Source: Sporosarcina oncorhynchi (lineage in GTDB: Bacteria; Bacillota; Bacilli; Bacillales_A; Planococcaceae). Taken from it: DNA of 64,000 nucleotides. How positions within the stretch are numbered: the stretch's first letter is position 1; each line of letters opens with the position of its first letter. A model generated the notes under the pieces. It saw only the letters and a list, made by a program, of their open reading frames with translations. It did no database searches and had not been told where the DNA came from. Positions 15,667 to 51,099 of the stretch are shown piece by piece. A program made the position numbers and the translations under genes. The stretch is from contig NZ_CP129118.1 in NCBI RefSeq assembly GCF_033304615.1, positions 2,662,001-2,726,000 of the forward strand, written 5' to 3'.

Positions 15667-15703
15667 CGCAAATCGGCGTAAGATAACCATAGGAAGACAT
15701 GCG

Positions 15704-15800
15704 ATCCACTTCCCTACGCTGGTATGAGCCAGATCAGGTTCTAAGGGTCCGCATATTGATACACGTCTCAGTCTTTCACAAAGACTCCCCCAGTGGTTAA
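15704..15800 (-). promoter_or_regulatory. TPP riboswitch (THI element)
   Basis: The reverse strand shows the conserved aptamer pieces in order: ACCACTGGGGGAGTC, a CTGAGA loop, ACCCTTAGAACCTGATCTGG and ACCAGCGTAGGGAAGTGG, with outer pairing CCACT/AGTGG. This is the classic thiamine-diphosphate aptamer. It precedes a terminator and thiMDEW, so ligand binding should terminate transcription. Confidence 0.97.
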
Positions 15801-15821
15801 CTTAATTTAGTTTTCAATTTC

Positions 15822-34129: not shown

Positions 34130-35416
34130 CTATCGTCGCATCATGGTCCCATCCACGTACGCGGCAAATTGCTCAAATGACCGATTATCCGTCATTCCAA
34201 AACGACGTACTTCATAATTTGAATCTTTCTGATTTGCATAGCCTTCGATAATTGTAAAGCCGAGCAGCAGACCCGCTTCTTTCGCCGCTGACGTATACGC
34301 CTCATTATACTGTCCATATGGATAGGCCAAAGTGACAGCCCCTGGCAAATGCGTGATATTCGTTTGCAAATCTGCGAATATCGCTTCTGTAGATAGCTTC
34401 ATGCCGATACCGATATGCGTATCTGTCAGTTCGTGCAGTTCATCCGTATGTGCCTCAAATTGAAAGACATCTTTCAGTTTAACGAGGTCGGCAGCGGTTA
34501 AATATTGGATTGGACCGTCCGCATCGAATTGCTGTTCATCTTTCGCGATCAGTAAACGTGACGTTATAATATGCTGAGTCGCTGTGAACCCATATTGCTT
34601 CAATATTGGATACGCATATTCTTTCGATGACAATAATCCATCGTCGAATGTAATGAGCACCGCTTTAGCTGGCAATACGAGCCTACCTTCTAAGTAATCA
34701 TAGAGTTGCTGTGGCGACAGTGTTGTAAATTGCTGTTCCGCCAAATAGCCAATCTGTTCTTCAAACGCTTCTATTGAAACTGTACTCGCTGTAGTTTTCA
34801 TCTTTTCATGCGGAATCATATGATGATATAAAAGAACAGGTACTCCTTCATCCAGTGTGACAGAGGATTTATGTATATACCCAGGTCGCTCGCCTAGTGT
34901 AATAATATACCAGTTTCCCTCTTCACGAACGACCGAATAGCGATAGCCTTCTTCCAATTGCATGAAAGTGGGACTGTTTAAGTCGTTCTCCTCATGAACC
35001 ATTGTTTTTCGGGCAGTTTTAACTGCGCCGAATCGTTCTTGTTCAGTGAGAACCCAGATTTTATTCTGTTCAACTGTCCCTAGCCCTTTGCGTACATATA
35101 CGTTCATCTTCCCTAATCGAAGCTCATAGTAATCTTCATCTTCATCCACAATCACAACTGGCTGACCGGCTTCCAACTCTCCGACTTTTATGAACTTTAC
35201 CTCTTTCATATAAATCGGTTGGCGTTCCTGCAGCGTCAGTACCCGATCAAATTCACGTTTGACGACAGGCGGTTCGGTTTGGTTACTTTGCGCAAAGACT
35301 TTCCCCAACTGTTCATTGAAAAAAGCAGCACCTGCAAGCCCCCATTTGCCGCTCCCACTTACCATCCAGACGAACAAGCCTACAAATACTAGCCCGCACA
35401 TAAATTTTCTCTTCAT
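34130..35416 (-). CDS. Secreted polysaccharide deacetylase with SH3-like region
   Basis: The 428-residue protein starts at the ATG at 35416 (GGAGGG upstream), with a signal/anchor helix (about 5-22). Residues about 60-200 hold two SH3-like segments that usually bind peptidoglycan, and 205-428 the NodB deacetylase domain with LLYHHMI, LITFDDGL (metal aspartate), and a histidine pair in FEAHTDELH. The usual H-x3-H spacing is H-x4-H here, so metal binding needs checking. It is the first gene of the ECF operon, so cell-wall or surface-polymer deacetylation is probably part of the stress response it controls. Confidence 0.82.
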   Translation of the reverse strand: MKRKFMCGLVFVGLFVWMVSGSGKWGLAGAAFFNEQLGKVFAQSNQTEPPVVKREFDRVLTLQERQPIYMKEVKFIKVGELEAGQPVVIVDEDEDYYELRLGKMNVYVRKGLGTVEQNKIWVLTEQERFGAVKTARKTMVHEENDLNSPTFMQLEEGYRYSVVREEGNWYIITLGERPGYIHKSSVTLDEGVPVLLYHHMIPHEKMKTTASTVSIEAFEEQIGYLAEQQFTTLSPQQLYDYLEGRLVLPAKAVLITFDDGLLSSKEYAYPILKQYGFTATQHIITSRLLIAKDEQQFDADGPIQYLTAADLVKLKDVFQFEAHTDELHELTDTHIGIGMKLSTEAIFADLQTNITHLPGAVTLAYPYGQYNEAYTSAAKEAGLLLGFTIIEGYANQKDSNYEVRRFGMTDNRSFEQFAAYVDGTMMRR

Positions 35417-35450
35417 CCCTGTCCCTCCACTTTCATTCAAGCACCCTACA

Positions 35451-37146: not shown

Positions 37147-37587
37147 TTATCCGTTATACACACTGTCGCATGTATTAGGAAGCGGCTCATAAAAGCAGTG
37201 TTGTTTAAATTGACCCGTGAACGGTTGGTTATACCATGTCGGCGGACAAGGCCCGAACGGATTAAAATACCACAGTGCATATTTGGCCGGATGAACTCGC
37301 CAGTTTTCTAAGTTCTGCCTAGCTAATTTCTTTTCCACTTCACGCGCCCGCTGATAGAATAAATTCCCTTTTTGGACAGCCTCAAACGAATAGTTATTGC
37401 CTTGTACCTGAAAGATGACATCATTAATCGTTCTAACATCTCTAAAGTCCAAACAATTTGCGACTGCACGATTCACAATGACATTCCCCACATACAACAT
37501 CCCTTGCTTACCTTCACCCTCGGCTTCCGCCCGCATCATCCTTGCCATTACGTCAACATCTGAATCCCGATACTTCACTCTAGGCAT
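37147..37587 (-). CDS. cwlJ: Spore cortex-lytic hydrolase, CwlJ-like
   Basis: The 146-residue protein is a stand-alone hydrolase-2 (SleB/CwlJ) domain: MMRAEAEGEGKQGMLYVGNV with the catalytic glutamate, FEAVQKGNLFYQRARE, AKYALWYFNPFGPCP and WYNQPFTGQFKQHCFYEP. Length and motifs match CwlJ rather than the longer SleB. CwlJ resides in the spore coat and degrades cortex peptidoglycan during germination. The gene shows that the host sporulates. Upstream on the reverse strand, CATACTAT resembles a SigE -10, which fits mother-cell expression, but the -35 is unclear. The ATG follows a GGGGGTGGG stretch. Confidence 0.88.
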   Translation of the reverse strand: MPRVKYRDSDVDVMARMMRAEAEGEGKQGMLYVGNVIVNRAVANCLDFRDVRTINDVIFQVQGNNYSFEAVQKGNLFYQRAREVEKKLARQNLENWRVHPAKYALWYFNPFGPCPPTWYNQPFTGQFKQHCFYEPLPNTCDSVYNG

Positions 37588-37724: not shown

Positions 37725-38393
37725 TTACTGAGCATAATCGCCTGTGTACTGGACAAGAGACACATCATTTACCCCTTCAATATCACTGATTGAATGAACG
37801 AAACCAGTATTATCATCTCTCAATCTAATTTCCACAGTCAATTCCGTAAACCCTTTGCGTACCGTCTTTGACTTAAGTTTCGTCTTCAGTTTCATGAGTT
37901 CCGTCCGTAACTCATTTACGGCTTGTTCTGTATGACGAATAATGAGCAAATATGATTGCTCCCTAATTTTTTGTCTCGAGAGAAAGAATACAACAAGTCC
38001 GATGACAAGCGATCCTCCTATTGCCAGTGGGTAAATTCTTGCTCCACATGCGATACCCGCAGCTAAAGACCAGAACATGTAAACAATATCTAACGGATCC
38101 TTCACTGCCGTCCTAAAACGAACGATACTGAGCGCACCAACCATACCTAATGATAAAATAATATTTGTACTAATCGTCATGATGACTAATGATGTAATCA
38201 TCGTCATCAGTACAAAAGAAATATTATAATTGTAGCTATACACGACACCGCGGAATGATTTCTTGTAAACCCAATAGATGAACATCCCAATTAAAAAAGC
38301 AAATAACAATCCAAAAATCATATCAACATATGATACAGTTCTGAACGCTTCAAGCTGTAAGACACTACTTTTGAAAAAATCCTGAAAGCCCAT
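37725..38393 (-). CDS. DUF4956 membrane protein, last gene of the Pel-type operon
   Basis: The 222-residue protein has four membrane helices (about residues 24-140) and a soluble C-terminal domain (about 150-222). The central GALSIVRFRTAVKDPLDIVYMFW segment, in parts, is the DUF4956 hallmark. Family members are often found next to VTC-type polyphosphate polymerases and CotH proteins, which is exactly the case here, and the activity is unknown. The start lies 21 bases after the VTC stop. It is probably an ion- or polyphosphate-related membrane partner of the VTC protein (inference). Confidence 0.82.
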   Translation of the reverse strand: MGFQDFFKSSVLQLEAFRTVSYVDMIFGLLFAFLIGMFIYWVYKKSFRGVVYSYNYNISFVLMTMITSLVIMTISTNIILSLGMVGALSIVRFRTAVKDPLDIVYMFWSLAAGIACGARIYPLAIGGSLVIGLVVFFLSRQKIREQSYLLIIRHTEQAVNELRTELMKLKTKLKSKTVRKGFTELTVEIRLRDDNTGFVHSISDIEGVNDVSLVQYTGDYAQ

Positions 38394-38414
38394 CTCTTCT
38401 GCTCCATTCTTGCC

Positions 38415-39125
38415 TCATTCTTTATAATGCTGCAATGTTTTTTCCCTGCAAAGTACATATTTTGAAATCGAAGACCGGATATGATTCATCGGCTGTATAA
38501 TTTGGCGAAGATGATCTGGAAGAAAAGAATCGAACTTCACTTCCATAATCGTCAATTCGGTCGGTAGTACTTCCTCGAGCACAAGACTCTGATCAAACAT
38601 ATCATACGTGTTGATGCCGGCAGAAAGTTTCTTATCAAATGTAATACGGACATTTCCCCACTCATATACATAAGCTTCACGCCAATAATCCACAATGACA
38701 CTTGGCCTAAATTGATAGGTTTTAAGTGCTGCATAAAACTCATGCAGCAATCGCTCTTCCCGCTTCAATAGAAAGGAATACTCGCCTGCCAGTACATTTT
38801 TATACTCCTCGTACGTAAGCGCTGCGGATTCTTTACAAACATATTCCCCAAACTTACTTTTTCTTTCTAAATTAATCGTTTCGTTACTATCGTTATACAT
38901 TCGAATTCGATACTTTTCTCTCCTAAAAACACCATCATTCTTAGTAATCAATGCACTACGTAGCGGATCATCAAAATAGAGACTTCGGATATTGTAGCCT
39001 TCATCATCAATAGAATGCTTATCTAATTCAAGAGCATTGGATAACGTGTTCTTCAACGATAAGTAATCATGTAAATGCAAATAATATTTTTGTTCTGTCC
39101 GTAAACTACGGCCACGTAACAACAA
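38415..39125 (-). CDS. VTC-domain polyphosphate polymerase-like protein
   Basis: The 236-residue protein is a VTC catalytic domain: RTEQKYYLH (first basic strand), IRSLYFDD, REKYRIRMY, NLERKSK and IMEVKFDSFLP supply the basic and acidic residues that line the catalytic tunnel in VTC4. Such proteins make polyphosphate from ATP in yeast, and bacterial ones are less well studied. The start is set at the TTG at 39125, two bases after the PelG-CotH stop and behind GGTGGAG. Another TTG follows at once at 39122. No membrane segment is present, so it probably works with the DUF4956 protein. Confidence 0.82.
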   Translation of the reverse strand: MLLRGRSLRTEQKYYLHLHDYLSLKNTLSNALELDKHSIDDEGYNIRSLYFDDPLRSALITKNDGVFRREKYRIRMYNDSNETINLERKSKFGEYVCKESAALTYEEYKNVLAGEYSFLLKREERLLHEFYAALKTYQFRPSVIVDYWREAYVYEWGNVRITFDKKLSAGINTYDMFDQSLVLEEVLPTELTIMEVKFDSFLPDHLRQIIQPMNHIRSSISKYVLCREKTLQHYKE

Positions 39126-39126
39126 T

Positions 39127-42100
39127 TTACTCCACCTCGAACTCTCTGACGCCGTCATGGAGGACTTCATCATCATCGATAGTCAGGTCAAATGCATCTT
39201 GGCGATTTCCATGTTCATCTCGAACACCTGACTTCCAGTAATATGTCCCTGGCGGCAATTTTTCTATTTCAATTGAATTCAATGAAATATCCTTCTTCTC
39301 AAAAACAATATCAGTGAACTCCAAATTCCTTGAAACGGCAATGTCATAAAACAATTCATCATCCTGCAAATCAAATGACAAGCCCCACGCAAACTTCAAC
39401 TTATCCCCTACGTCTTCAACATCATGCATATAATAAGGTTTCGGTTTTTCAAGGTCCTCGTAATACCTTCTAAGACTTGCCTCTGGTGTTTGTAATATGA
39501 TTTGTAATTCCTCATCGTAATCCCCTGCATGTGATGGCAAGAAATTCGTATCAGGATAACGATAGAGAAACGGTTCGACAATATCCCGATAGCGCTCTAA
39601 TTGCACTGCAATCGTTTGCTCATTTATATAATTTTTATGCAACTCTTCAATTTTCGCGGTTAACTTGTCCACGTTCCCTTGCTTTCTGAAATAGCGGTTT
39701 GCTAACTTCGAAACCCAATAGTTACTAATCCCTGTTTGAAACGTTTGCATCGTTTTTGCTTTTCTTTGAAGCTCCCATCCTCCATCATAATCCCATGGCA
39801 ATATGTACCATTTATTATTGTTTATTGGTGAATAGAGGAAAAAGTTGTTTGCTTCCGTATCCATATTATCCATTAGGATATTAATGGCCGTCCAAGTTAA
39901 AAAGTTCTCCTCATCGAAATGAAGACTCATTACATCTTCGATTGGCATGCTTAAATTGTTCACATCATCCAACATTTTGATCAATTTTCCATGCTCTTTT
40001 CTACCTTTCACTTCTAAAATAGTTTCAAATTTTTCCAAGTCAAAGTCTGGATCAGTTTCTTCTTTGATAAAATCTTCATATCTATCAAACTCGAAAAAGT
40101 TTACTTTATACAAATACCCATTCGGGTCAAGCATATGTGATTTCAAAAACTTCTTATTTGGCTGTTCAACGTGGGTAAACAAGCCATAATCTTCATAGGG
40201 CGCCTCTTTCGCTCCTGTTGATAAATCCTTCACATAAAGATGAATAAACTGCGTTCTTAAACTAGTGATATTAGGAATTGTCTCCATTAAGTCAAAGCTC
40301 AACTTATTACGGACGCGGGAGAATTCACTAATATGCTTGTTTAAATTGACTGTTTGCTGGCCCATATACAATCCCGCTTCGTCATTAAGCTTAATCCGAA
40401 ACGATTTCTGTGGCTGGTTCCATGCTGAACGTCCCCGTAGTTGTATGGTTGCATTTTCTACTGTCGTTCCATAGCCAAACATACCTGAACGCGGTGCATC
40501 TTCATCACTAAATCCTTCTTGCATAATAATTGGTAGTTTTTCACCAAAGGTTTTTTCCGTCTTTCGATTCAACCCATACCAATCAAGAGATTCGTCTTTA
40601 TTCTTCTTTTTAGGCAAAACCGTAATGTATAACGTTTTTAGAGATGAATCATCATCCCGCTCATAAAGTCTTTCATCTTCGGTAAGTTGTGTATTGATAT
40701 TGTTCGGCATAGAAGCACGGTTGACAATTTCTTCAACTTGGACATCCTCTTCCTCATTGCTTTCAATGGAACTACCAAACGTACAAGCTGACAGCAACAT
40801 CGTGGAAACTACTAATACAAATGCAGTGGATGCAGCTTTACCGAACTGCCTATGCTTTTTCCGTGCCGTCTGCAAAGTAATCGGCTGCGAACAAAATGTA
40901 TAGTAGTCGATATTGCGAAGAACATAGAGCAGTCTTGCAAAAACGAGCCCGACGGCAATCGCAGATGCGATAAACATACCTAGGCCATCAAATCCTACAT
41001 TCATCATCCAGTAGCTGAATAAAATATTAAAAATAGCAAACATAGCGCTAATGCCAAGCACTCCTTTACGATCATCAAAGTACATTAGAATGTGTGTCAA
41101 TACGAAAAAAATGATAAACAAGAAATAAGCCAATGACAAAATGATAAACAAGTCCAATTGCGCCATTGTAAATCCGATTTTTGGTAAGAACTTGATACCA
41201 AGAGCAATCGATAAAATCGTGAATAACAACTGCACTTCTACTAGAAAACTAACTTGCTTCATTAACGTTTTCTGCATTTGTTGCTTAGCCACTTTAATAT
41301 CTTGTATCGTTCCACCATTTACGATATTTAAATAATAGAGACGGAATTTCTCATAAAATGCTGTTTCTACAGAAACGACAAATGTAACAAATGTCGGCAA
41401 CACAGTTAAAAATGCATAGAATACAGGCAAGTCATAAAAAGGCATGATTAGAAATTGATCTGCAATCGATCTGCCGCCTGGGCTTAACCAATAGACGAAG
41501 TTATGCAAGTAAATACCGGAGTACACAAAGCAACCCGCAAAAAATAAAGAAGCATACTTCTTCATATAACCAAGGTACTCAAAATAATAGCCTTGCTCCG
41601 CCCTCGGAAAACGCTGTTCGAAATGGAGATTTGATAGAATAACAATTAGTAAAAACCCGATATCTAAACTGATTAAAGGAGTGACCGTAGAATCCAAGGT
41701 CGTCAAGCGAGATAGAACCCATCCACTACATACTGCTGCAACTGAGCCAATTGCAAAACCTCTTACAATTCGCACGTAATCTTTCAATGCCGATAAGAAG
41801 ACACCTTGAATCCATACGATGATTAGCAGCAAAAAGAAGAAATAGGCTGAAGCCTTATACATCCACCCAGCTGATACAGCACTCAAAAATAGTGCTCCTA
41901 CAACAGCGGCAATCGGTAGCATGACAATGAGTGCTCCGTAATAAGCTGACATTAAACGACTGTACTTCTTTTCATAGAGCATATCGGCTGTATAGCGTGT
42001 TAGCACCATTGAAATGCCACTTGTAAATACAATAGAAAAAATGAAGCAATAGGAAACGGTCGCAATATACAGTTCCCAATTCGCATAGCCCATTTGCTTC

Positions 42101-42252
42101 GTTGCTGTAATCCGTTGCAAGGCAACAATGAGCCCCATACTTAAAATCATCGGTCCAATAGTCGTAAGCGATGAATAGGCATAGGCTTTCAGTTGATTCA
42201 CCATTCCTTGCTCACGAAACATTTTTCTCAGCTCAAATCCTATGCCCGCCAT
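39127..42252 (-). CDS. pelG: PelG-type transporter fused to a CotH kinase domain
   Basis: This 1041-residue protein (ATG at 42252, GGGAGG upstream; another ATG at 42255) has two unrelated parts. Residues 1-470 are a PelG exporter of the polysaccharide-transporter superfamily, beginning MAGIGFELRKMF and with about 12 membrane helices. Around residues 470-490 lies a helix ending MLLSAC, a perfect lipobox (Cys490), followed by an acidic linker. Residues about 540-950 are a CotH-type protein kinase with DNMDTEANNFFLY (from Asp795) and LPWDYDGG (Asp821, Asp823), the expected catalytic and metal residues. A short beta domain ends the protein. The extra helix would place CotH outside the cell. It overlaps pelF by 20 bases. 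Confidence 0.85.
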   Translation of the reverse strand: MAGIGFELRKMFREQGMVNQLKAYAYSSLTTIGPMILSMGLIVALQRITATKQMGYANWELYIATVSYCFIFSIVFTSGISMVLTRYTADMLYEKKYSRLMSAYYGALIVMLPIAAVVGALFLSAVSAGWMYKASAYFFFLLLIIVWIQGVFLSALKDYVRIVRGFAIGSVAAVCSGWVLSRLTTLDSTVTPLISLDIGFLLIVILSNLHFEQRFPRAEQGYYFEYLGYMKKYASLFFAGCFVYSGIYLHNFVYWLSPGGRSIADQFLIMPFYDLPVFYAFLTVLPTFVTFVVSVETAFYEKFRLYYLNIVNGGTIQDIKVAKQQMQKTLMKQVSFLVEVQLLFTILSIALGIKFLPKIGFTMAQLDLFIILSLAYFLFIIFFVLTHILMYFDDRKGVLGISAMFAIFNILFSYWMMNVGFDGLGMFIASAIAVGLVFARLLYVLRNIDYYTFCSQPITLQTARKKHRQFGKAASTAFVLVVSTMLLSACTFGSSIESNEEEDVQVEEIVNRASMPNNINTQLTEDERLYERDDDSSLKTLYITVLPKKKNKDESLDWYGLNRKTEKTFGEKLPIIMQEGFSDEDAPRSGMFGYGTTVENATIQLRGRSAWNQPQKSFRIKLNDEAGLYMGQQTVNLNKHISEFSRVRNKLSFDLMETIPNITSLRTQFIHLYVKDLSTGAKEAPYEDYGLFTHVEQPNKKFLKSHMLDPNGYLYKVNFFEFDRYEDFIKEETDPDFDLEKFETILEVKGRKEHGKLIKMLDDVNNLSMPIEDVMSLHFDEENFLTWTAINILMDNMDTEANNFFLYSPINNNKWYILPWDYDGGWELQRKAKTMQTFQTGISNYWVSKLANRYFRKQGNVDKLTAKIEELHKNYINEQTIAVQLERYRDIVEPFLYRYPDTNFLPSHAGDYDEELQIILQTPEASLRRYYEDLEKPKPYYMHDVEDVGDKLKFAWGLSFDLQDDELFYDIAVSRNLEFTDIVFEKKDISLNSIEIEKLPPGTYYWKSGVRDEHGNRQDAFDLTIDDDEVLHDGVREFEVE

Positions 42253-43666
42253 CATGTCCACCTCCCATTGATTCATACAACCTACGATAATTTTTGATAA
42301 CATCATCTTGACGGTAATACCGTTCAACGCGCTTGTACGCATTTCGTGCCATTTCTAGACGTAACGCTTCGTCTTTATACAATTTAATGGCTGCATTTGC
42401 CATTTGCTCATAGTGCATAACCGGCACGACAATGCCAGAAGGACCTATACCATCGTCTATTCCTTCGAGTAACTCTCTGCAACTACCAACGTCTGTTGCA
42501 ACAAAGGGTTTTCCAGCAGCCATGCCTTCTAATATGGCTAATGGCTGACCTTCGCTAATGCTAGATAACACTAATAAATCCATCTTTCCAATGTATTCTC
42601 TGATGGGTACTAACCCTGTAAAGAAGACATCCTTTAATTCCAACACTTCGACCAGTTGCAAACACTCTTCGTAATAGTCCTCATTTTCTTCATAAGGCCC
42701 CAAAATATAAAAGACAGCGTTTGGCAATTTCTGTTTGATGAGTGCAAAACTTTGTAGCATCGTTTTAATATCTTTAATCGGAACGACGCGCACGATGGCT
42801 CCAATATAAAATTCATTTTCCGGCTTAGTAGAAGGCAATCGTTTGTAATCGACGACAGAAACACCGTTCGGAATGATTTCGATTTTTTCTTCCGCACATC
42901 CTAATTCAACTTCCACTTCTTTATTCCGCCCGAATAACGTCGTCACCCAATCCGAATGATTATAGGCACTTGAAGATAATCGATAGAAATATTGAATCCA
43001 CAAATCTTTAAAATATCCTTTTACCCAATCCGCCTTAATAATCTCTTCTTCCCTCTCACGCGAATAAATTCCGTGCTCTGTTAGTAAAAATGGCTTTCCA
43101 TGTACTTCATTGGCAACCGTTCCAATAATCCCAGCATAACCTGTTGAAACACCATGGTAGAGATCTGCTTTTGGAATATCATCCCGTATGATGATAAGCA
43201 ATGGTAAGATCATCGAGCGAACTGTCCAGAACATTTCTGTGAAAGGTACTAACGGATAGTGTTCTTCACATAATTCATGCAAGATGTCATAGAAATCCCG
43301 GCTAGTTAAAAAATCCGAAACATTGCTAAATCGTGGACTGCGCACCATTCTAATAAACGCTGGCCAATCCATCTCCCCTTCGCTCCCAAGCAAAGATTTC
43401 ACATTACGTTTTTCACCAATGGTCATTTTGAAGCTTTTCCCCCACTTGACCTTTTCTTCTAAATAAGAGTCTAAGAACGATTCTTTTACCTCAACGAGAT
43501 TGTCTGGCAACTCGTACTTGAACTGCCCTCTTTGCTTCTTCTCTGGAGAAATAGCATAAATTATAAACTCATGCTCTGGCATTTGAGTGATTACACTTTG
43601 GATCCAACTCGACACTCCACCTGTTACATAAGGATAGGATCCTTCCGCGATTATACAAATCCTCAT
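42233..43666 (-). CDS. pelF: PelF family GT4 glycosyltransferase
   Basis: The 477-residue cytosolic glycosyltransferase has the PelF start MRICIIAEGSYPYVTGGVSSW, an acceptor domain with LTEHGIYSREREEEI, and a C-terminal nucleotide-sugar domain with IIPNGVSV, GAIVRVVPIKDIKT and SSISEGQPLAILEGMA (catalytic E-x7-E type). In Pseudomonas, PelF polymerises the GalNAc/GlcNAc-rich Pel chain at the inner membrane. The ATG at 43666 follows GGGGGGTGA four bases after the DUF2194 stop; a GTG one codon earlier is possible. It is the most clearly recognisable marker of the operon. Confidence 0.93.
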   Translation of the reverse strand: MRICIIAEGSYPYVTGGVSSWIQSVITQMPEHEFIIYAISPEKKQRGQFKYELPDNLVEVKESFLDSYLEEKVKWGKSFKMTIGEKRNVKSLLGSEGEMDWPAFIRMVRSPRFSNVSDFLTSRDFYDILHELCEEHYPLVPFTEMFWTVRSMILPLLIIIRDDIPKADLYHGVSTGYAGIIGTVANEVHGKPFLLTEHGIYSREREEEIIKADWVKGYFKDLWIQYFYRLSSSAYNHSDWVTTLFGRNKEVEVELGCAEEKIEIIPNGVSVVDYKRLPSTKPENEFYIGAIVRVVPIKDIKTMLQSFALIKQKLPNAVFYILGPYEENEDYYEECLQLVEVLELKDVFFTGLVPIREYIGKMDLLVLSSISEGQPLAILEGMAAGKPFVATDVGSCRELLEGIDDGIGPSGIVVPVMHYEQMANAAIKLYKDEALRLEMARNAYKRVERYYRQDDVIKNYRRLYESMGGGHDGGHRI

Positions 43667-43670
43667 CACT

Positions 43671-45521
43671 TCACCCCCCTAGTCCCATCGAAAAATCATT
43701 GCCAGAAGCCTTAACTAAATAAACGCCTGTATCGATTTTCTGTACTGAACAATTCGTCAGTCTCCCAATCTTTTTATTCGTACGCAATATAAAATAATGC
43801 TCTTCTGCATCAGTATTTGTCGCAACTTGAAGCTTTTGTCCATCTTTTGAAACGATCATTCTGCTTTGTAGCTGGTCTGCCATATTGATTGCTGCATCTG
43901 AAGAAGTAATACTGCGCAACCATGGGTATGTCGTGTGCAATCTATCTAGCAAATGCTCAAAATCCTCATACAGACTCTTCCATGTTTGTTGACGTCCTCT
44001 TTCTTGGTCTAATAAATCATCTGGGTGAAGGAAATGTGAAAACACTCCTAAAGATGTAATCGTGTTCGCTTCTACCCATTTATTGTAATCCGTATCAAAA
44101 TAGCCGGATGTGATTCGGGGCATTTCCATAATTCCATCTGCACCTATTTCAAATTCCTGTACATACGATCGCTCAAACGGATCTGTCATATAGAGGGATG
44201 AAATGACTGCTAGTTCGGGCCAAGCATCCACCAACGCTTGTCTTCCTTCATGGCCAAGCACATTAGATGGCGGGACATAGGACATCACACTATAATTCGG
44301 AAATGCCTGCTTGAGATAACGCAATATCGTCTCTATAGACGCTTCCATTTCCTCAGCCTTTTCCCATGGGATATATCCGAAGTAATCCGCAATTTCTTTG
44401 TTCATCTGGAGCGACTGATGATTATAACCGTGTATGCCTATTTCGCCACCACTTTTAATAACCTCTCGGCCGTACCCGATAAGGTTATGCAGTTCTTCAT
44501 CGCCTAGATTGTAAAATGGCGGTTTAACATTATCCCCGTACGTTTGAATAGCTACCGCCGTGTATCTCACGTCATGGTTGTTAGCAACTTTAAGCATTTG
44601 TGGCCACCATATATCATGGAAAAATGTCGGAATGTCCATTTTGTATTCTTTATAAATGACGTCGTTTATCCCTTGAGGAATTGGTGCTGGAAAATCATCA
44701 ATGTAAAATAGCTTCGTATTAAAAATGGGGTAGATGTAGTCCGGCTCCATCATACTGATCCCGCCTGCAATCAATCCTCTAGCATCCTTTCCACCAAGGC
44801 TACTGCCATTAAAAATAACGAAAGCACCGTCGCCAATCTTCTTTTTCCACATCAAAGGACTTTGATCTGCCGTAGTCGCTAACAACTCCACACTGTCATC
44901 CAATTCCGCCGGGATAATATCGTTATAAATAAAGTCGCCGTCGTACTTTACCCCTTTTTGATTGATCAGGACGTTGGATGAAAGCCCAATACCATATTTC
45001 CCTTCTAAATAACCGAAGTTTACAAATCCTAATTTGCGATAGACTTTGTTAAACGCATCGGTAGGATTATCTGAGCGCATCCAAAACAGATGCCCACCAT
45101 TTTCAACATATTCAACAATATCTGGTATCTCATATTCCACACTATCTAAAGAGGATGTGAGCAAAACAGCTTGGCAATTTTTCACATCCAAACTGTTTGT
45201 ATCGAGATCGATTGTTTTATACGGCTGTTGCATATAACCGAGGACACGCTCCGTGTTCACTTTCACCTTTACGCTTAGCTCGTCCTCACCATCAAATGCT
45301 AAGCAATAGTCACGCTCGGACTTTTCGACTGCAGCTACTAATTTCGTTTCTGTTGCTAAATACTGTTCTTTTATCATTTGATACTGTTGATGGTTTTTCT
45401 CGTTATGATTAAACTCTAATACGAATTTGGACCTGGATAATTGCGTGACTCCAGCAAAAAGCAGGATAAATAGCATGATAATATATACTTTACGTTGAAA
45501 CCTTACATCTCTTTTCATCAT
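43671..45521 (-). CDS. DUF2194 polysaccharide-deacetylase-like protein in PelA position
   Basis: The 616-residue protein has one N-terminal membrane helix (about 12-30), so the rest is outside. The first 250 residues look like a DUF2194/glutamine-amidotransferase-like region (GGHLFWMRSDNPTDAFNK). Residues about 265-520 are deacetylase-like, with FYIDDFPAP (double Asp) and EIGIHGYNHQSL (His pair) as metal site. A PelA-type glycoside hydrolase region is not visible. It likely deacetylates the polymer during export, as PelA does. Its ATG shares the A of the upstream TAA stop (a second ATG at 45518 may be the true start). Confidence 0.75.
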   Translation of the reverse strand: MMKRDVRFQRKVYIIMLFILLFAGVTQLSRSKFVLEFNHNEKNHQQYQMIKEQYLATETKLVAAVEKSERDYCLAFDGEDELSVKVKVNTERVLGYMQQPYKTIDLDTNSLDVKNCQAVLLTSSLDSVEYEIPDIVEYVENGGHLFWMRSDNPTDAFNKVYRKLGFVNFGYLEGKYGIGLSSNVLINQKGVKYDGDFIYNDIIPAELDDSVELLATTADQSPLMWKKKIGDGAFVIFNGSSLGGKDARGLIAGGISMMEPDYIYPIFNTKLFYIDDFPAPIPQGINDVIYKEYKMDIPTFFHDIWWPQMLKVANNHDVRYTAVAIQTYGDNVKPPFYNLGDEELHNLIGYGREVIKSGGEIGIHGYNHQSLQMNKEIADYFGYIPWEKAEEMEASIETILRYLKQAFPNYSVMSYVPPSNVLGHEGRQALVDAWPELAVISSLYMTDPFERSYVQEFEIGADGIMEMPRITSGYFDTDYNKWVEANTITSLGVFSHFLHPDDLLDQERGRQQTWKSLYEDFEHLLDRLHTTYPWLRSITSSDAAINMADQLQSRMIVSKDGQKLQVATNTDAEEHYFILRTNKKIGRLTNCSVQKIDTGVYLVKASGNDFSMGLGG

Positions 45522-46414
45522 TACGCTCCTTCTGACCAGAACCTCACCATCGTTAGAGCTTGATTGGATAATTTGATTGGCGAGTTTTTCAAGCTATCCA
45601 AAGCTTGTTGAAGCCGTTGTACTGAACGGATTTCATAATAGACTTTCATCAAGCTTAAATACGCCCCCTCACTATCGGGCAATGCATCGACATATAAACG
45701 AGCCATTTTTTCCGCTTCCGCAAAGGATCCCAATGTCAATTCCAAGTTCACACATTCCTGATACGCCCATTCGCAGCACTTATCCAATTCAATCCATTTC
45801 AGCAGAACCGTGCGGTATGTGTACCGATATTTCAACAATGTCCGGTCATCTAAAAACCCACTTCTCATATAAGCATGCAACACTTCTGCGTAGGTCTTGA
45901 CGACTAGCTGATCGGTTGGATCAGATTCGAATTTCACAGCTAGGTCTTGTAAAGCGAGCTGTAATTTCCTCTTCGCTTCCATGATGGCACTTACTGCATA
46001 ATACGATGTTTCTTTGTCTTCATTGCTCACTGCACGCTGAAGTATTTCCAAGTAATTAACGGCATCTTGTTTCAACACATCAATGAGTACCTTTCTTCTT
46101 GTTTTGTTTTCACTAACAACCAGTGCATCTTCAATCGGTATGACATCAAGTTCTTGCTGCCGTTCGATTTGTTGATAAATCCCAATTCTTTTCACTTTAT
46201 GTTCTTCTGCCTGACGTGTAACAAAATCCTCGAAGTCCTCATTACTATCTCCAATGAGCCACTTCGGCCAAAAAGTCGGAAGAAGCCATCCCACACCAGG
46301 CAAGACAACGATAACGATCCCTTTCATAAGTCGATCTTGCCAAGACTTCCTATACAGGACATAAATTAGCAGGAGCGATAGTAGTACGTAAATACCGTAA
46401 ATGATCCAGAACAT
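45521..46414 (-). CDS. pelE: PelE-like membrane protein with helical repeats
   Basis: The 297-residue protein (ATG at 46414, AGAGGAG upstream, five bases after the preceding stop) has two N-terminal membrane helices (about 2-20 and 31-50) followed by a purely helical cytosolic part with TPR-like pairs, e.g. YVDALPDSEGAYLSLMKVYYE. Length, topology and location directly after the PelD gene match PelE, which in Pseudomonas supports the PelD-PelE-PelG synthase complex. Sequence similarity cannot be judged by eye, so the call rests on topology and gene order. Confidence 0.7.
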   Translation of the reverse strand: MFWIIYGIYVLLSLLLIYVLYRKSWQDRLMKGIVIVVLPGVGWLLPTFWPKWLIGDSNEDFEDFVTRQAEEHKVKRIGIYQQIERQQELDVIPIEDALVVSENKTRRKVLIDVLKQDAVNYLEILQRAVSNEDKETSYYAVSAIMEAKRKLQLALQDLAVKFESDPTDQLVVKTYAEVLHAYMRSGFLDDRTLLKYRYTYRTVLLKWIELDKCCEWAYQECVNLELTLGSFAEAEKMARLYVDALPDSEGAYLSLMKVYYEIRSVQRLQQALDSLKNSPIKLSNQALTMVRFWSEGA

Positions 46415-46419
46415 GCGAT

Positions 46420-48597
46420 TCACTCCTCTGTTAATGCAGTAAAGATCATGGAGTCATGTGTCAACCGGTTCACAATCTTTTCTCGATCTTCCATACTGGT
46501 ATTCGATAATAAGACAAGTAGATTCCCCTCTTCATCCAAGCCAAGATAATCTGTTTCTCTTAACTTCGTCGACAAATAATCTGCCGTATCGCTATTCGAC
46601 AAATCATACCGCTCAGCATTCAACAGTAAATACGGCACATTATATTCTTCAAACATCTTTTTCTTGGATGCGACTATTTCATTGAACACTTGTGGTTTCA
46701 TAATCATAGAATTCTCAAAGTACCGTTGTGATTCAGTCGCTGTAATATGCGTGAATGCTTTACTAAGTGCTGAAGAAATTAACTCTGTCGTGATACGGAA
46801 TAAGTTTTGGTGATACATTGAAAAACTTTCAAACGACAATCCGTCAATGGATATAATCGCGGTCACTTTATCGTTATAAAAAAGCGGTGCAACCATTAAT
46901 GGCACGTCATCTTGCAGACTCCCATTAATATAAATCTGTCCCGATTTAATCGTGGTATTTACATACTCATGCTCGGATACTTTCAAGGATTTCGGTAATT
47001 CAAATAAATCGTATCCAGAGCTTGCTATAAGGCGTAAATACGTTTCATGCGGGTTGACGATATAAATTTTGACTTTCTCCACTTGCATAATAGATTTGAC
47101 AACACTTACTGCAGAATTAAAGACATGTTCCGGCTCTAGGCTCTCTAATTCTTTTGTTGCCGCATAAATCTTTCCGTAACTATCCCCAGCATTTAAAATG
47201 CGTGTTTGAAGTTCATTCTTTACGTCACGAACGTCGGTATAGACACTGTCGAGAAACTCATAACGGTTGTTCAATTCATCCACTTTGTATTCCTGTTGTT
47301 TAATCGTCGTGTTTTTTCGTTCAATTGTATAACCGACAACTAATCCGACAAAGAGGTAAATAGCGAGTTGAAAGAAAAAATCAGTATCGTACGTCAACGA
47401 TATGAAATCCCGGCCGCCCTCAAGCTTCTGGTAAATGAACAACCCTGTTGATAGCACGACAGCAGTCATTGCCTGACGACTGCCGTGCATCATTCCAATA
47501 ATCGTGATATAAAATAACTTCAGATCAATCATGCCACTTCCACTGTTCGGATAAATCAATGTCAGCCAAGCGATTAACCCGAATGCGACGACGTTTTCTA
47601 GAGTTGGAAGTATCTTATCGAATACTTGACGAGCTTTTATACGCTTTGGCGAAACAGCGGGTTTTACAACTGCCTGCAGTTCTGCTCTTTCTTTCATAAA
47701 ATAGCTAGCTGTCTTTGAAAGTCCTTCTTCAATTGTATAGAGCGGGGACCAATCCAAGTCATGCATCAGCTTTTGGTTATCTAACACGGAATGATCAATA
47801 TCTCCGACTCTTTTTTCTTTATAGATGACTTCTGTAATAGGCTGAATCGCATCCATTACTTCAATAATGCGGTTTACTGATGTCTGCTTATTAACCGAAA
47901 GATTATAAACCCCTGTTTGAGTACTGTTTGCCCCCCGGTAAATTGCAAAGGCGACATCTTCGACATATATAAAGTCCCGTGTCTGCTCACCGTCTCCAAG
48001 CACAATTAAAGGCTGTTCCGTTAGTAGTCGGTTCATGAAGATGGAAATGACGCCCCCTTCTCCTAAACCATCTTGACGCGGTCCGTACACATTCGAAAAA
48101 CGAAAACCAAGTGTCTCTAAGCCATATAGCTCTCCCCACTTTTCACAGTACAGTTCCCCGCTCAGCTTACTAATCCCATAAGGTGAGATCGGAGCGCACT
48201 CCATCTGTTCCGTAATTGGCAACTTGGTTTGCAATCCATAAACAGCTGCAGAAGAAGCATATAAAAACTTCTTTACGTCATATTTTGCAGCCAGATTTAA
48301 TATATTCACAAGTCCGACGATATTCGATTCCGCATCATACGTCGGATCAGTAACCGAATTGGCGACACTTACTTGTGCAGCCAAATGGACGGCAACATCA
48401 ATTTTATGCGACCTAAAGATTTCCTCGCACTTCGAATCTTCAATTGACAATATATAACTATTATGCTTAAACGAGACGTTCTCTTTCTTCCCGGTCGTTA
48501 AGTTATCGATAATGATAACGTCATAGCCTTCTTGGTGAAAACGCTCGGCAACATGAGACCCGATAAATCCATATCCTCCTGTTACTAAAACCTTCAT
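46420..48597 (-). CDS. pelD: UDP-sugar 4-epimerase fused to PelD-like c-di-GMP receptor
   Basis: The 725-residue protein (ATG at 48597, AAGGTGGGG upstream) is a two-part fusion. Residues 1-310 form a complete extended SDR epimerase: GGYGFIG (7-13), SSAAVYG and the catalytic YGISK (Tyr140, Lys144), similar to GalE or GlcNAc 4-epimerases. Residues about 340-430 are about four membrane helices, followed by a coiled coil, a GAF domain (about 475-600) and a degenerate GGDEF domain (about 610-725). The cyclase loop is lost, but the RxxD inhibitory-site motif RETD (680-683) is kept, as in Pseudomonas PelD, where it binds c-di-GMP. It probably couples precursor supply to c-di-GMP-gated synthesis. Confidence 0.85.
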   Translation of the reverse strand: MKVLVTGGYGFIGSHVAERFHQEGYDVIIIDNLTTGKKENVSFKHNSYILSIEDSKCEEIFRSHKIDVAVHLAAQVSVANSVTDPTYDAESNIVGLVNILNLAAKYDVKKFLYASSAAVYGLQTKLPITEQMECAPISPYGISKLSGELYCEKWGELYGLETLGFRFSNVYGPRQDGLGEGGVISIFMNRLLTEQPLIVLGDGEQTRDFIYVEDVAFAIYRGANSTQTGVYNLSVNKQTSVNRIIEVMDAIQPITEVIYKEKRVGDIDHSVLDNQKLMHDLDWSPLYTIEEGLSKTASYFMKERAELQAVVKPAVSPKRIKARQVFDKILPTLENVVAFGLIAWLTLIYPNSGSGMIDLKLFYITIIGMMHGSRQAMTAVVLSTGLFIYQKLEGGRDFISLTYDTDFFFQLAIYLFVGLVVGYTIERKNTTIKQQEYKVDELNNRYEFLDSVYTDVRDVKNELQTRILNAGDSYGKIYAATKELESLEPEHVFNSAVSVVKSIMQVEKVKIYIVNPHETYLRLIASSGYDLFELPKSLKVSEHEYVNTTIKSGQIYINGSLQDDVPLMVAPLFYNDKVTAIISIDGLSFESFSMYHQNLFRITTELISSALSKAFTHITATESQRYFENSMIMKPQVFNEIVASKKKMFEEYNVPYLLLNAERYDLSNSDTADYLSTKLRETDYLGLDEEGNLLVLLSNTSMEDREKIVNRLTHDSMIFTALTEE

Positions 48598-48618
48598 TTG
48601 TTTCCCCACCTTTCTATC

Positions 48619-48655
48619 AAACTCACAATTGACAACAAAACTCACAATTGACAAC
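48619..48655 (-). repeat. Tandem 18-bp repeat before the Pel-type operon
   Basis: AAACTCACAATTGACAAC occurs at 48619-48636 and again, unchanged, at 48638-48655 (period 19). On the coding strand each copy reads GTTGTCAATTGTGAGTTT with a TCAATTG core. It ends about 20 bases before the epimerase-PelD start codon, so it lies in the leader or over the promoter. I could not pick a clear promoter; TATAAT boxes occur upstream at several places within 48655-48800. Confidence 0.7.
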
Positions 48656-48894
48656 AGTAATCATCGCTCAAGTTATTATGAAGTTGCCTTGCATACATTC
48701 AGTTGATTATAAAGACCCACGACAAAAGACTGAACTTTGCTTCACCACTTATATATTTGTAAATTATAGAACTTAATACTTAAAGAACTCTTAAACTTTT
48801 CTTACATCAGCACTATGTACATACTTTTTTAGCGTTCTAAAGTATGGGTATTTCTATAAACTCATGCCTCACACTCTATAAACCTATCCATGCA

Positions 48895-48928
48895 AAAAAC
48901 CGAAAATGCTAGGATATAGCATTTCCGG
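48895..48928 (-). terminator. Intrinsic terminator after the beta-helix gene
   Basis: On the reverse strand CCGGAAATGCTA pairs with TAGCATTTTCGG (complement of 48900-48928, one or two mismatches), followed by a U run at 48894-48899. It separates the beta-helix gene from the Pel-type operon. Confidence 0.8.
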
Positions 48929-48945
48929 TCAATAAGTAGGTTATT

Positions 48946-51099
48946 TTATTGTTTTGTTTTAATCATTTGTATTGACTCCATTTTACTCTCCATTGGTAAC
49001 TTGTCCGTCCGTGAATCTTTCCATGCATAGCCAATGGAGATTGCTTGCTGAGATTTGCCTACATCCGTGAGAGGAATTGCATATTCTACCGCAGTCGAAC
49101 TTACAGCATATCGGCCTGTTTGACGGTATGAAGTAACTTTAGACCAATTCCAATTGGTTCCGCCACTTCCGCTATATTTATATAATGTCCCGTTTTCAAT
49201 GAGATAACCGGATTGATTATCCGACCAATATGGAGATTCAAAGGCCGTTTCATCCTCTCCAGTGTCAATAAACAATTGGCCTTTCTCAGTCAGTAGATGG
49301 CCTTCAATTAGTACATACAATGTATCGCTTGTCATTACTGCTTTCATACTTCTAACATTTGACCCACTAGTACTAAGCTCAGGAAGTGTTTCCCAGTCAT
49401 CACTCATCCCGTCTATCGTAATGGTTACAGGCATGGATACAGGCGGTTCAACTGTTGACGGCTGTACCTCAGGCATATCCGGGATAGGTTCTGCAGGCCT
49501 CGACGCAGCGTTTGGCTTGTCGTATACAGGTTTAACAGGAACGAAGCCACTTATATATTCCGCTGCTCCTATGTCAATTCCCCCGCCAGCAATACGAGGT
49601 TGGTTGTAATAATCCACTGTCATCTTATCAACCAATTGCAATGTTCCGCCATCGACCGCAGGCGATTGACTCAAAACGTATGGACCGTTTTTCTCGATAT
49701 CTCCAAATCGTGGATCTGCATATATGGAATGCTTATCAAAACCGGTTGCACTTTTAAATGCCTCCCACGATTTATAGCTCACACCATCAAAACGCCAACT
49801 TTTCACATTCATGTCATCCGCGCGGTAATACAGATTATAGTCAATCACATTGCCGCGTCCTGTCTTCTCGCTGTTTTTGATAAATCTCTTTTCAGGAAAC
49901 GTATAAATGATATTATTCGCAAATGTATTATTCACGTTGTAATTTTGCAACGTGATTTCCCCATATCCTTGATGCGACGTATCGTTCATGTAAAGTGTAT
50001 TATTCACAATTCGATTGTTAGAAGCACCTCCATTGTCTAAACCGGAGCCGCCCATAATAATTCCTGCGCCATGATTATGATGTAAATAATTATTGCGCAC
50101 AGTTATTTGACTCGTTTCTTTCCCTTGAATCTCACTTGCCAATTCAATCCCAAAATTGCTATTAAACACTTCGTTGTTCTCTACAATTATATTCGTCCCG
50201 CCGTCCACATAAATGCCCGCAGCCGCTCGCTCTCCCTTATTTCCGTAAGCCGGATTCGTGGCAGTGTCGATATTGTAAACAAGATTATGCGCTACGATAC
50301 CATTTCGTGCTTGGTCAATACATGGGGCAGAACACGTTTTATAATGACCAATAATATCGATGCCAATATTATTGTTATCATGTACTTTATTATATTCAAT
50401 GACAAAGTCTTTCACGTTGCCATCCAATGTTAATGATTCACTCGAACCGGAAATTAGGTGATGAATATCGTTTCCGGTAATCTTGATGTCTGAAATCGGT
50501 GTTAGCGAATCCCCATACACGATAAGTCCATGCGCATTCCCATTGGTCGCATAGTTTGAGATGCTATGGATATGATTATCCGCGATAAGTATATGTGATC
50601 CGCCTCCACGAACTTTCATGCCGGATATATAATCACTACGGCTGTCCGTTGTGAACCCACGTATTTCAAATCCTTGCACAGCGACATAACTCGCTCCGCG
50701 AATTAACAGCAGTGTGTTCTGGCTACTTGTCGGTGTTATATTTTTCCCTTCTAGCACAGGACGCTCGCCCGGAAAAGCCTGAAACGTAATATAGCCTTCT
50801 TGAGCAGAACCAGATTGCCTAATTTGGACGAACTCTTCGTACAGTCCTTCTCGCACAAAGACCGTTTCTCCAGCAACAAGCGTATCAGCCGCTTTTTGGA
50901 TTGTTCTCCACGGCGCTTGTAGCGTCCCCGGATTCCCATCATCTCCACTAGTCGAAACGTAATACGCTTTCTTAGATGAAGTGTCACTCGAGTAAACAGG
51001 GGGCGACAAATAGACAATACCTATCATCAACGCCATAAGCGCGGTAAAACTTAGCTTGGAGTGCTTCATCATTTTGTTGTGTATCCTTCGTATGTTCAT
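48946..51099 (-). CDS. Secreted right-handed parallel beta-helix protein
   Basis: The 717-residue protein has a signal peptide (about 1-38) and starts its mature part with YYVSTSGDDGNPGTLQAPWRTIQKA, in short segments, the DUF1565-like entry to a parallel beta-helix. Repeated NN-rich turns (residues about 95-470) form the helix, as in pectate lyases and alginate or glucuronan epimerases. After a Pro/Glu/Val-rich linker (about 515-555) comes a C-terminal domain (about 556-717) resembling a family 9 carbohydrate-binding module. The likely job is cleavage or remodelling of an extracellular polysaccharide, perhaps the Pel-like polymer made by the next operon. The catalytic residues are not evident to me. 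Confidence 0.78.
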   Translation of the reverse strand: MNIRRIHNKMMKHSKLSFTALMALMIGIVYLSPPVYSSDTSSKKAYYVSTSGDDGNPGTLQAPWRTIQKAADTLVAGETVFVREGLYEEFVQIRQSGSAQEGYITFQAFPGERPVLEGKNITPTSSQNTLLLIRGASYVAVQGFEIRGFTTDSRSDYISGMKVRGGGSHILIADNHIHSISNYATNGNAHGLIVYGDSLTPISDIKITGNDIHHLISGSSESLTLDGNVKDFVIEYNKVHDNNNIGIDIIGHYKTCSAPCIDQARNGIVAHNLVYNIDTATNPAYGNKGERAAAGIYVDGGTNIIVENNEVFNSNFGIELASEIQGKETSQITVRNNYLHHNHGAGIIMGGSGLDNGGASNNRIVNNTLYMNDTSHQGYGEITLQNYNVNNTFANNIIYTFPEKRFIKNSEKTGRGNVIDYNLYYRADDMNVKSWRFDGVSYKSWEAFKSATGFDKHSIYADPRFGDIEKNGPYVLSQSPAVDGGTLQLVDKMTVDYYNQPRIAGGGIDIGAAEYISGFVPVKPVYDKPNAASRPAEPIPDMPEVQPSTVEPPVSMPVTITIDGMSDDWETLPELSTSGSNVRSMKAVMTSDTLYVLIEGHLLTEKGQLFIDTGEDETAFESPYWSDNQSGYLIENGTLYKYSGSGGTNWNWSKVTSYRQTGRYAVSSTAVEYAIPLTDVGKSQQAISIGYAWKDSRTDKLPMESKMESIQMIKTKQ

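Follow-up and report, generated by a model that had tools for sequence, protein, structure and literature searches.

How does the membrane exporter of the Pel exopolysaccharide come to share one reading frame with a CotH-type kinase, and what might the lipoprotein-type signal at the joint between the two do there? The question is raised by an operon in a stretch of 64,000 nucleotides from Sporosarcina oncorhynchi (NCBI RefSeq assembly GCF_033304615.1, contig NZ_CP129118.1, positions 2,662,001 to 2,726,000 of the forward strand), which was analysed as a whole and is referred to here as the window. The seven open reading frames (ORFs) of this operon, all on the minus strand, span 37725-48654 in the ORF list of the window and 37725-48597 once their starts are refined by Shine-Dalgarno-like sites and the lengths of relatives, with neighbouring genes either overlapping by 4, 1, and 20 bases or lying 1, 1, and 21 bases apart. 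A sequence-only reading had described them as a tightly packed, one-strand, Gram-positive Pel-like operon with rearranged and fused components, carrying a combination of CotH, VTC, and DUF4956 that it did not know as described. The layout is confirmed, with no overlap exceeding 20 bases and no gap exceeding 21, and its gene order is repeated in 17 of the 20 pel loci compared and in most of a set of 80 loci, and is therefore not due to chance. The components are not rearranged: their order is that of pelDEADAFG in Bacillus cereus followed by the accessory trio of CotH, VTC, and DUF4956, with only pelG and cotH joined. Although the architecture is largely known, two parts of it were not found in print, namely the PelG-CotH fusion with its internal lipobox and the spread of the trio beyond pel, and it is on the first of these that the argument below is centered.

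The PelG-CotH fusion and its occurrence

The joined gene (39127..42252, minus strand) encodes 1041 amino acids, in which a PelG exporter, a linker with an internal lipobox, a CotH kinase domain, and a C-terminal tail follow one another. Both Pfam families match within this one ORF of the window (PelG with an E-value of 9e-122 and CotH with 2.9e-56), and the assignment further draws on a match to the structure 5jd9, on a single clade in the trees, and on a full-length homologue elsewhere, namely a protein in a second genome, from another family (G057), that has the same fusion across its full length at 62% identity. In the 80-locus set the fusion lies in an open frame in 51 loci; this set was picked with two CotH peptide patterns (80 of 93 loci kept), so that its fused and unfused counts are not frequencies, and one locus scored there as unfused (L129) is uninformative, its contig beginning inside the gene. 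Among drawn or listed genomes, where the count of fusions rests on frame length, PelG scores above its cut-off in 52 of the 398 genomes of a Bacilli draw, seven of the 52 having a frame longer than 1000 amino acids, all seven fused; the window's family (261 genomes) holds 24 genomes with PelG, 18 of them with a frame of that length and all 18 fused; and in a phylum-wide draw of 398 genomes PelG is above the cut-off in 13, the window alone having such a frame. A sequencing or assembly accident is excluded by the frames that are open in 51 of the 80 loci and in 18 of the 24 PelG-positive genomes of the family, and the full-length G057 protein, taken together with those 51 open frames, rules out an accident of the local frame. 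One further candidate, a PelG frame of 818 amino acids in G327, was rejected as a fusion, CotH being separate there (L066).

Fused loci are found mostly in Paenibacillus, and also in Brevibacillus (for example the soil bacterium B. panacihumi), Cohnella, Saccharibacillus, Ureibacillus, Rummeliibacillus, Psychrobacillus, Solibacillus, and Sporosarcina. In a PelG tree of 72 rows the fused proteins fall into a single clade (support 100), as they do again in a tree of 83 rows with an outgroup and a mixture model (support 99); L159, with broken frames, was dropped from both trees and L153 and L103, with long branches, from the second, the fused L103 falling within the fused clade of the 72-row tree. 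As far as the trees show, pelG and cotH would thus have been joined once. The PelG of the window pairs with that of Ureibacillus manganicus among Paenibacillus and Brevibacillus rows, apart from its own family, which points to horizontal transfer; within the genus the occurrence of PelG is patchy, since the PelG part is found in 0 of 36 same-genus relatives but is present in two further members. As a separate observation, two tandem CotH genes occur in the pel loci L067, L068, L128, L145, and L154, and in L128 (Saccharibacillus) one CotH is fused to PelG while the second is separate and has a lipobox of its own.

A lipoprotein-type signal at the joint

The signal in the linker (40783..40863, minus strand) consists of the basic stretch RKKHRQFGK, a hydrophobic stretch, and the lipobox LSAC, whose cysteine is Cys490 of 1041 (codon 40785-40783). 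Lipobox letters stand at the joint in all 62 distinct fused proteins, that is, the window, the 51 of the 80-locus set, and 10 further ones (the list has 67 rows, of which five, L001, L055, L056, L057, and L059, are truncated duplicates of genes in the count). Among the 51, position -3 is Leu in 45, and every one has Ala, Gly, or Ser at position -1; when a hydropathy filter is added to the lipobox, 48 pass and L091, L092, and L127 fail. Eight of the 10 further proteins were added after the rule had been fixed, and of these eight, seven pass with the filter and L199 on letters alone. As background, the 80-locus set gives a lipobox in 5 of 752 PelG hydrophobic segments and, across 98 other polytopic ORFs, in 9 of 558 internal segments.

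The linker has diverged further than the parts it connects (mean pairwise identity among the 51 is 0.27, against 0.58 for PelG and 0.59 for CotH), and only four of its columns are at least 95% conserved: D, K, and Y on the border of the CotH domain, and the cysteine, which is the sole such column ahead of the domain start. Its codon is TGC in 27 proteins and TGT in 24, and a disulphide is unlikely because 50 of the 51 have no further cysteine downstream. The uncharged span before the cysteine measures 16.5 residues, against 15.2 in stand-alone CotH signals (n = 25), and is shorter than the uncharged spans of PelG, at 20.3 residues (n = 605, spans below 14 being left out by construction), its length being that of a signal peptide and not of a membrane helix; the net charge ahead of the hydrophobic stretch is +2 to +6. 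The basic stretch, the short hydrophobic stretch, and the lipobox cysteine of a lipoprotein are all found, but the signal is internal instead of N-terminal, and PelG-CotH is for this reason not classed as an ordinary lipoprotein. Unfused CotH proteins read as lipoproteins in 10 of 13 cases by eye and in 24 of 33 ORFs by script, fragments and non-pel proteins included. PelG has been modelled as a 12-helix bundle (PMC13254593), which would leave both of its termini on the same face of the membrane, assumed to be the inner one, so that the linker would start inside and CotH would come to lie outside.

Proposed fate of the joined protein

We infer the topology, lipidation, cleavage, kinase activity, and target of PelG-CotH, and the reading that we favour, with somewhat more confidence than doubt, is that it is a polyprotein which is lipidated at Cys490 and probably cut by signal peptidase II, so that CotH is placed at the Pel exit. 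A downstream cotH lipoprotein gene would have been joined to pelG, and the former CotH signal peptide, now sitting after the last helix of PelG, would have become an internal N-in/C-out lipoprotein signal. Lgt would lipidate the internal cysteine, signal peptidase II (LspA, which is present in the genome) would then cleave the protein of about 120 kDa ahead of this residue into parts of about 55 and 65 kDa, and the exporter and a lipid-anchored CotH kinase would be left adjacent and in equal amounts on the outer face, at the Pel exit.

A rather less probable alternative is that the joint adds one more membrane helix and that the protein stays whole, its cysteine lipidated or not, with the kinase held permanently at the export gate. 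Keeping two partners together is the simplest role that a fusion can have, some unfused CotH proteins are anchored without a cysteine, and a PelA-type deacetylase of B. cereus has been modelled as docking on PelG through a membrane helix (PMC13254593), which makes modifying enzymes at the exit plausible. A plain anchor, however, needs neither a lipobox cysteine that is invariant in 62 of 62 proteins nor a hydrophobic stretch of signal length. It may also be supposed that CotH is made alone as well, from an internal start, and that the signal serves this second translation product, which would account for its retention; but none of the 62 fused proteins has a Shine-Dalgarno site with a start codon in the 30 codons that precede the signal (the same motif is found within the first 40 codons of 22 of 30 stand-alone CotH genes), so that a separate product is an unlikely reason for the signal, and we give this explanation little credence. 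Least probable of all is that the lipobox is a relic of the cotH signal peptide with no role since the fusion, for although the fused proteins are one clade and their signal resembles that of the unfused genes, the cysteine stands in 51 of 51 proteins whose linkers have drifted to 27% identity and whose codon for it is mixed.

Several observations weigh against the polyprotein reading. The hydropathy count gives 11 segments in PelG plus the one in the linker, not 12 plus one, and the AlphaFold model of the linker and CotH from a seven-row alignment is poor (predicted local distance difference test, pLDDT, 50.2) and supports nothing, its best-scored part being the C-terminal tail, modelled as beta strands. 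The rule used for Shine-Dalgarno sites picks up no more than 33 of the 77 first starts in VTC ORFs, and initiation without such a site may occur. The unfused pel CotH proteins of L070, L071, and L073 have a hydrophobic N-terminus without a cysteine, and the lipid is therefore not needed everywhere. Finally, the 62 fused proteins are one clade and do not count as independent origins, for all the divergence of their linkers, and the trees in which they form it come from quick searches with support from the SH-like approximate likelihood-ratio test (SH-aLRT) only.

As to precedents for processing of the kind proposed, the term "internal lipobox" gave no match in the literature searched, and no polytopic precursor cut by signal peptidase II was seen in the literature listings. 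LtaS is described as a polytopic enzyme that signal peptidase I cleaves (PMC10865820). Like PelG-CotH, it combines membrane helices with an extracellular domain behind them and a signal-peptidase site, whereas PelG-CotH differs from it in having a lipobox, of the signal peptidase II type, and in comprising two proteins of different function.

The Pel operon around the fusion

By its profile matches the window locus is a Gram-positive Pel operon. PelF, a GT4 glycosyltransferase of 478 amino acids (42233..43669, minus strand), scores 380.2 bits with the NCBIfam equivalog NF038011 against a cut-off of 100, the next best model reaching 85.3 bits, and it also matches Pfam DUF3492 (1.9e-80) and GT4 families; the PelG part scores 407.7 bits with PF16933 against a cut-off of 29. 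The sequence-only reading had named PelF and PelG profiles scoring below unrelated GT4 or PST families as the result that would count against it; with both far above their cut-offs, and with the c-di-GMP residues of PelD kept, its assignment to a Gram-positive Pel-type system stands.

PelD (46420..48597, minus strand, 725 amino acids, with a start chosen from a Shine-Dalgarno-like site and the lengths of relatives) is laid out as an N-terminal NAD-dependent epimerase, a membrane region, a GAF domain, and a degenerate GGDEF domain with an inhibitory-site (I-site) RxxD motif, an assignment based on Pfam, motif counts, and a weak GGDEF profile match. Its N-terminus matches Pfam Epimerase at 2.1e-62, while GAF_3 (7.3e-6, 26.9 bits) lies just under the cut-off of 27. 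A profile of 26 PelD C-termini gives a weak match (E-value 9e-4) to a GGDEF protein across the RxxD, the GGDEF signature itself being lost. Residues R680, D683, and R711 recur without exception in the 64 full-length epimerase-PelD proteins, that of the window included, and the I-site residues are also invariant columns in the PelD alignment; the 64 are those longer than 700 amino acids, with L098, L149, L159, L134, and L135 left out as short or split (L098 still has RETD, L159 is broken, and L134 and L135 are split). In B. cereus PelD the residues R363, D366, and R395 are reported as required for binding cyclic di-GMP (c-di-GMP) (PMC7112168), with spacings of 3 and 29 that compare with 3 and 28 in the window. 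The epimerase motifs GGxGFIG, Ser115, Tyr140, and Lys144 are likewise intact in 64 of 64 proteins, the window's included, whereas the main text of PMC7112168 has them altered in streptococci, clostridia, and actinobacteria and suggests intact motifs for Brevibacillus. Against control by c-di-GMP it must be said that PelD has no Pfam GGDEF or PelD match, its C-terminal domain being without any Pfam match, and that the 638-amino-acid epimerase-PelD of L149 lacks RxxD near its end in a locus that has the trio; as in streptococci, this may be a form that lacks the c-di-GMP domain. Searches of the PDB, with the single sequence and with the profile of C-termini, matched no PelD structure. As an observation apart, there are 18 GGDEF matches in the genome, one of them a membrane diguanylate cyclase (5TMR-LYT and GGDEF) in the window at 4860-5927 on the minus strand.

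The next gene (45521..46423, minus strand, 300 amino acids) encodes a membrane/TPR protein with only a sub-threshold TPR match in Pfam, which is PelE-like by its position and by its homology to the corresponding gene of other pel loci, down to an E-value of 8.2e-7 in L079, no family model scoring above its cut-off. At the position of the PelA-type deacetylase lies a protein of 616 amino acids (43671..45521, minus strand) with Pfam matches to DUF2194 (2.1e-152) and to DUF2334, above the cut-off, and to Polysacc_deac_1, below it. Taking the B. cereus and Pseudomonas aeruginosa systems together with the conservation of motifs, we infer a c-di-GMP-controlled Pel system of the CotH/VTC/DUF4956 type, in which the epimerase of PelD probably makes UDP-N-acetylgalactosamine (UDP-GalNAc) at the synthase, PelF would be switched on when the degenerate GGDEF of PelD binds c-di-GMP, PelG would export the chain, and the DUF2194 protein would deacetylate the polymer outside, at the exit.

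The accessory trio within and beyond pel

The CotH domain of the fusion aligns with the B. cereus CotH structure 5jd9 (E-value 1.3e-10), Asp residues included, and its Asp columns are invariant in a seven-row alignment; we take them to be the catalytic ones. The VTC-type polyphosphate polymerase domain protein (38415..39125, minus strand, 236 amino acids, TTG start) matches Pfam at 1.7e-38, and yeast Vtc4 (3g3q, E-value 5.4e-18) is matched by a profile built from 25 relatives, a PDB search with the single sequence having given nothing useful; 19 columns are invariant in the 25 sequences, among them K71, R73, R75, E87, K89, R160, E195, and K222, which presumably form the basic tunnel and the acidic metal ligand. 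The last gene (37725..38393, minus strand) encodes a DUF4956 membrane protein of 222 amino acids with an ACT-like C-terminal domain (Pfam 2e-11, a weak MgtC/SapB match in NCBIfam); judged by its AlphaFold model (pLDDT 74.7), whose best PDB match is the C-terminal domain of MgtC (2lqj, E-value 9.9e-4), it is MgtC-like.

The trio is present within the fetched stretch in 17 of the 18 epimerase-PelD loci compared, the exception being L076, and VTC is more widespread than Pel, occurring in 116 of the 398 Bacilli genomes as against 52 with PelG above the cut-off. In 20 non-pel VTC loci, which were hand-picked and not sampled at random and in which some ORFs were left unscanned, DUF4956 adjoins VTC in 19, and in 11 the pair has beside it a CotH whose hydrophobic N-terminus reads by eye as of the export type, nine of these having been found with the pel-CotH profile (E-values of 4e-22 to 4e-12) and two more through Pfam, without a match to that profile. 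In L169, L170, and L174 VTC-DUF4956 is followed, in place of CotH, by what reads by eye as an exported lipoprotein bearing a Cthe_2159 carbohydrate-binding domain, and no CotH was found beside the pair among the ORFs scanned in L171, L178, L180, L184, L187, and L188, the stretch of L187 ending inside DUF4956. In L155 (9770-15681) and L158 (9839-14787) a CotH closely related to that of pel stands with VTC and DUF4956; next to them are a PelF-like glycosyltransferase (DUF3492) and several proteins that no Pfam family matches, with no PelG within the fetched stretch, and these sets are perhaps another exopolysaccharide system. A Planctomycetota metagenome-assembled genome (L163:4667-13965) groups VTC, DUF4956, and CotH closely with a beta-helix/NosD protein. 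According to the text of PMC12345266 the three trio genes were not found in synteny outside the Pel locus; contrary to this, VTC-DUF4956 with an exported CotH does occur outside pel, most of the non-pel CotH proteins being distant relatives. The spore CotH kinase (5jd9) has the CotH domain in common with the window, and 24 short CotH loci (L006-L029), which we take as spore-type, have no export signal by eye and neither VTC nor DUF4956 in their flanks, which cover about 1.5 kb at most per side; L029 is a fragment and uninformative.

Little ATP (adenosine triphosphate) is expected outside the cell, and a surface kinase would therefore have to be fed from inside. VTC would make polyphosphate, the MgtC-like DUF4956 protein would pass phosphate or polyphosphate across the membrane, and CotH, exported from a polyprotein cut by signal peptidase II, would, at the exit, phosphorylate Pel or molecules next to it. 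Taken whole, this scheme seems to us improbable. It is favoured by the presence of VTC-DUF4956 beside exported CotH or, in three loci, beside the Cthe_2159 lipoprotein, and by its absence from the short flanks covered around the 24 short CotH loci without a visible export signal (one of them the L029 fragment); it is opposed by the resemblance of DUF4956 to MgtC and not to any known polyphosphate channel, by the distance of the non-pel CotH proteins from that of pel, and by the VTC deletion in Streptococcus intermedius, for which the text of PMC12345266 tells of no change in aggregation or Pel.

Upstream region and flanking genes

The region upstream of pelD (48598..48945, minus strand) holds a terminator-like site of the preceding gene (48930-48898), two tandem copies of a 19-base unit, TGTTGTCAATTGTGAGTTT (both copies at 48656-48619), and, just after these, the Shine-Dalgarno-like site of pelD; the tandem repeat is possibly an operator. 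A promoter scan gave 29 sites against 34.1 expected, without excess, so that a single transcript is neither favoured nor disfavoured. Rfam gave no match in this region, and a c-di-GMP riboswitch before the operon was excluded, the only element found at gathering thresholds being a thiamine pyrophosphate (TPP) element at 15694-15801. Just upstream of the operon, and followed by the terminator-like site, lies a beta-helix protein (DUF1565) of 717 amino acids (48946-51099, minus strand), which could act on polysaccharide; downstream there are a polysaccharide deacetylase with a sub-threshold SH3 match (34130-35440, minus strand) and a Hydrolase_2 (cell wall hydrolase) protein (37147-37587, minus strand).

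Relation to known systems and significance

Much of what the window shows has been described elsewhere. The main text of PMC7112168 reported in 2020 CotH, a polyphosphate polymerase, and DUF4956 beside pelDEADAFG, and an epimerase domain on PelD, in streptococci, clostridia, and actinobacteria, and PMC12345266 reported in 2025 the single deletion of the trio genes in S. intermedius, where loss of CotH gave less Pel, loss of DUF4956 gave more, and both reduced aggregation in artificial sputum. The trio is therefore excluded as new, and the claim that the combination was undescribed does not hold. As for fused components, the epimerase on PelD was already in print, whereas the PelG-CotH fusion was not found in the literature searched, supplementary figures excepted: the words "fusion" and "Paenibacillus" are absent from the main text of PMC7112168, which includes Brevibacillus, a genus with the fusion, and whose supplementary figures could draw it; Paenibacillus, PelG, and CotH together gave no match in the literature searched.

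The pelDEADAFG operon of B. cereus ATCC 10987, as described in PMC7112168, is like that of the window in having, in the same order, PelD with an I-site and a second Arg, PelE (in the window a PelE-like protein), a deacetylase (in the window the DUF2194 protein at its position), PelF, and PelG, and differs in that the window's PelD bears an epimerase with intact motifs and CotH, VTC, and DUF4956 follow; a further difference is that no separate galE or PelA-hydrolase gene was found among the flanking window ORFs scanned. The streptococcal and clostridial loci (PMC7112168, PMC12345266, PMC2879425) are reported to have, like the window, the trio beside pelG and an epimerase on PelD. Their accounts list cotH, polyphosphate polymerase, DUF4956, and DUF4832 (SIR_1591-1594 in S. 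intermedius), and, for NELoc-2 of Clostridium perfringens, CotH, VTC, and neighbouring genes (PMC2879425). In both S. intermedius and NELoc-2 cotH is a gene of its own, whereas in the window it is fused to pelG; streptococcal PelD is described as lacking the GGDEF domain (PMC7112168), whereas the window's has an I-site; and DUF4832 has no match among the flanking window ORFs scanned.

If the internal lipobox is used, PelG-CotH would be a natural bacterial polyprotein, with signal peptidase II processing inside a polytopic precursor, and the site of action of CotH would be fixed outside the cell, at the Pel exit, beside the deacetylase. The sets of the trio outside pel suggest a module of wider use, and the intact epimerase and c-di-GMP residues suggest these Bacilli as models of the regulated form of Pel.

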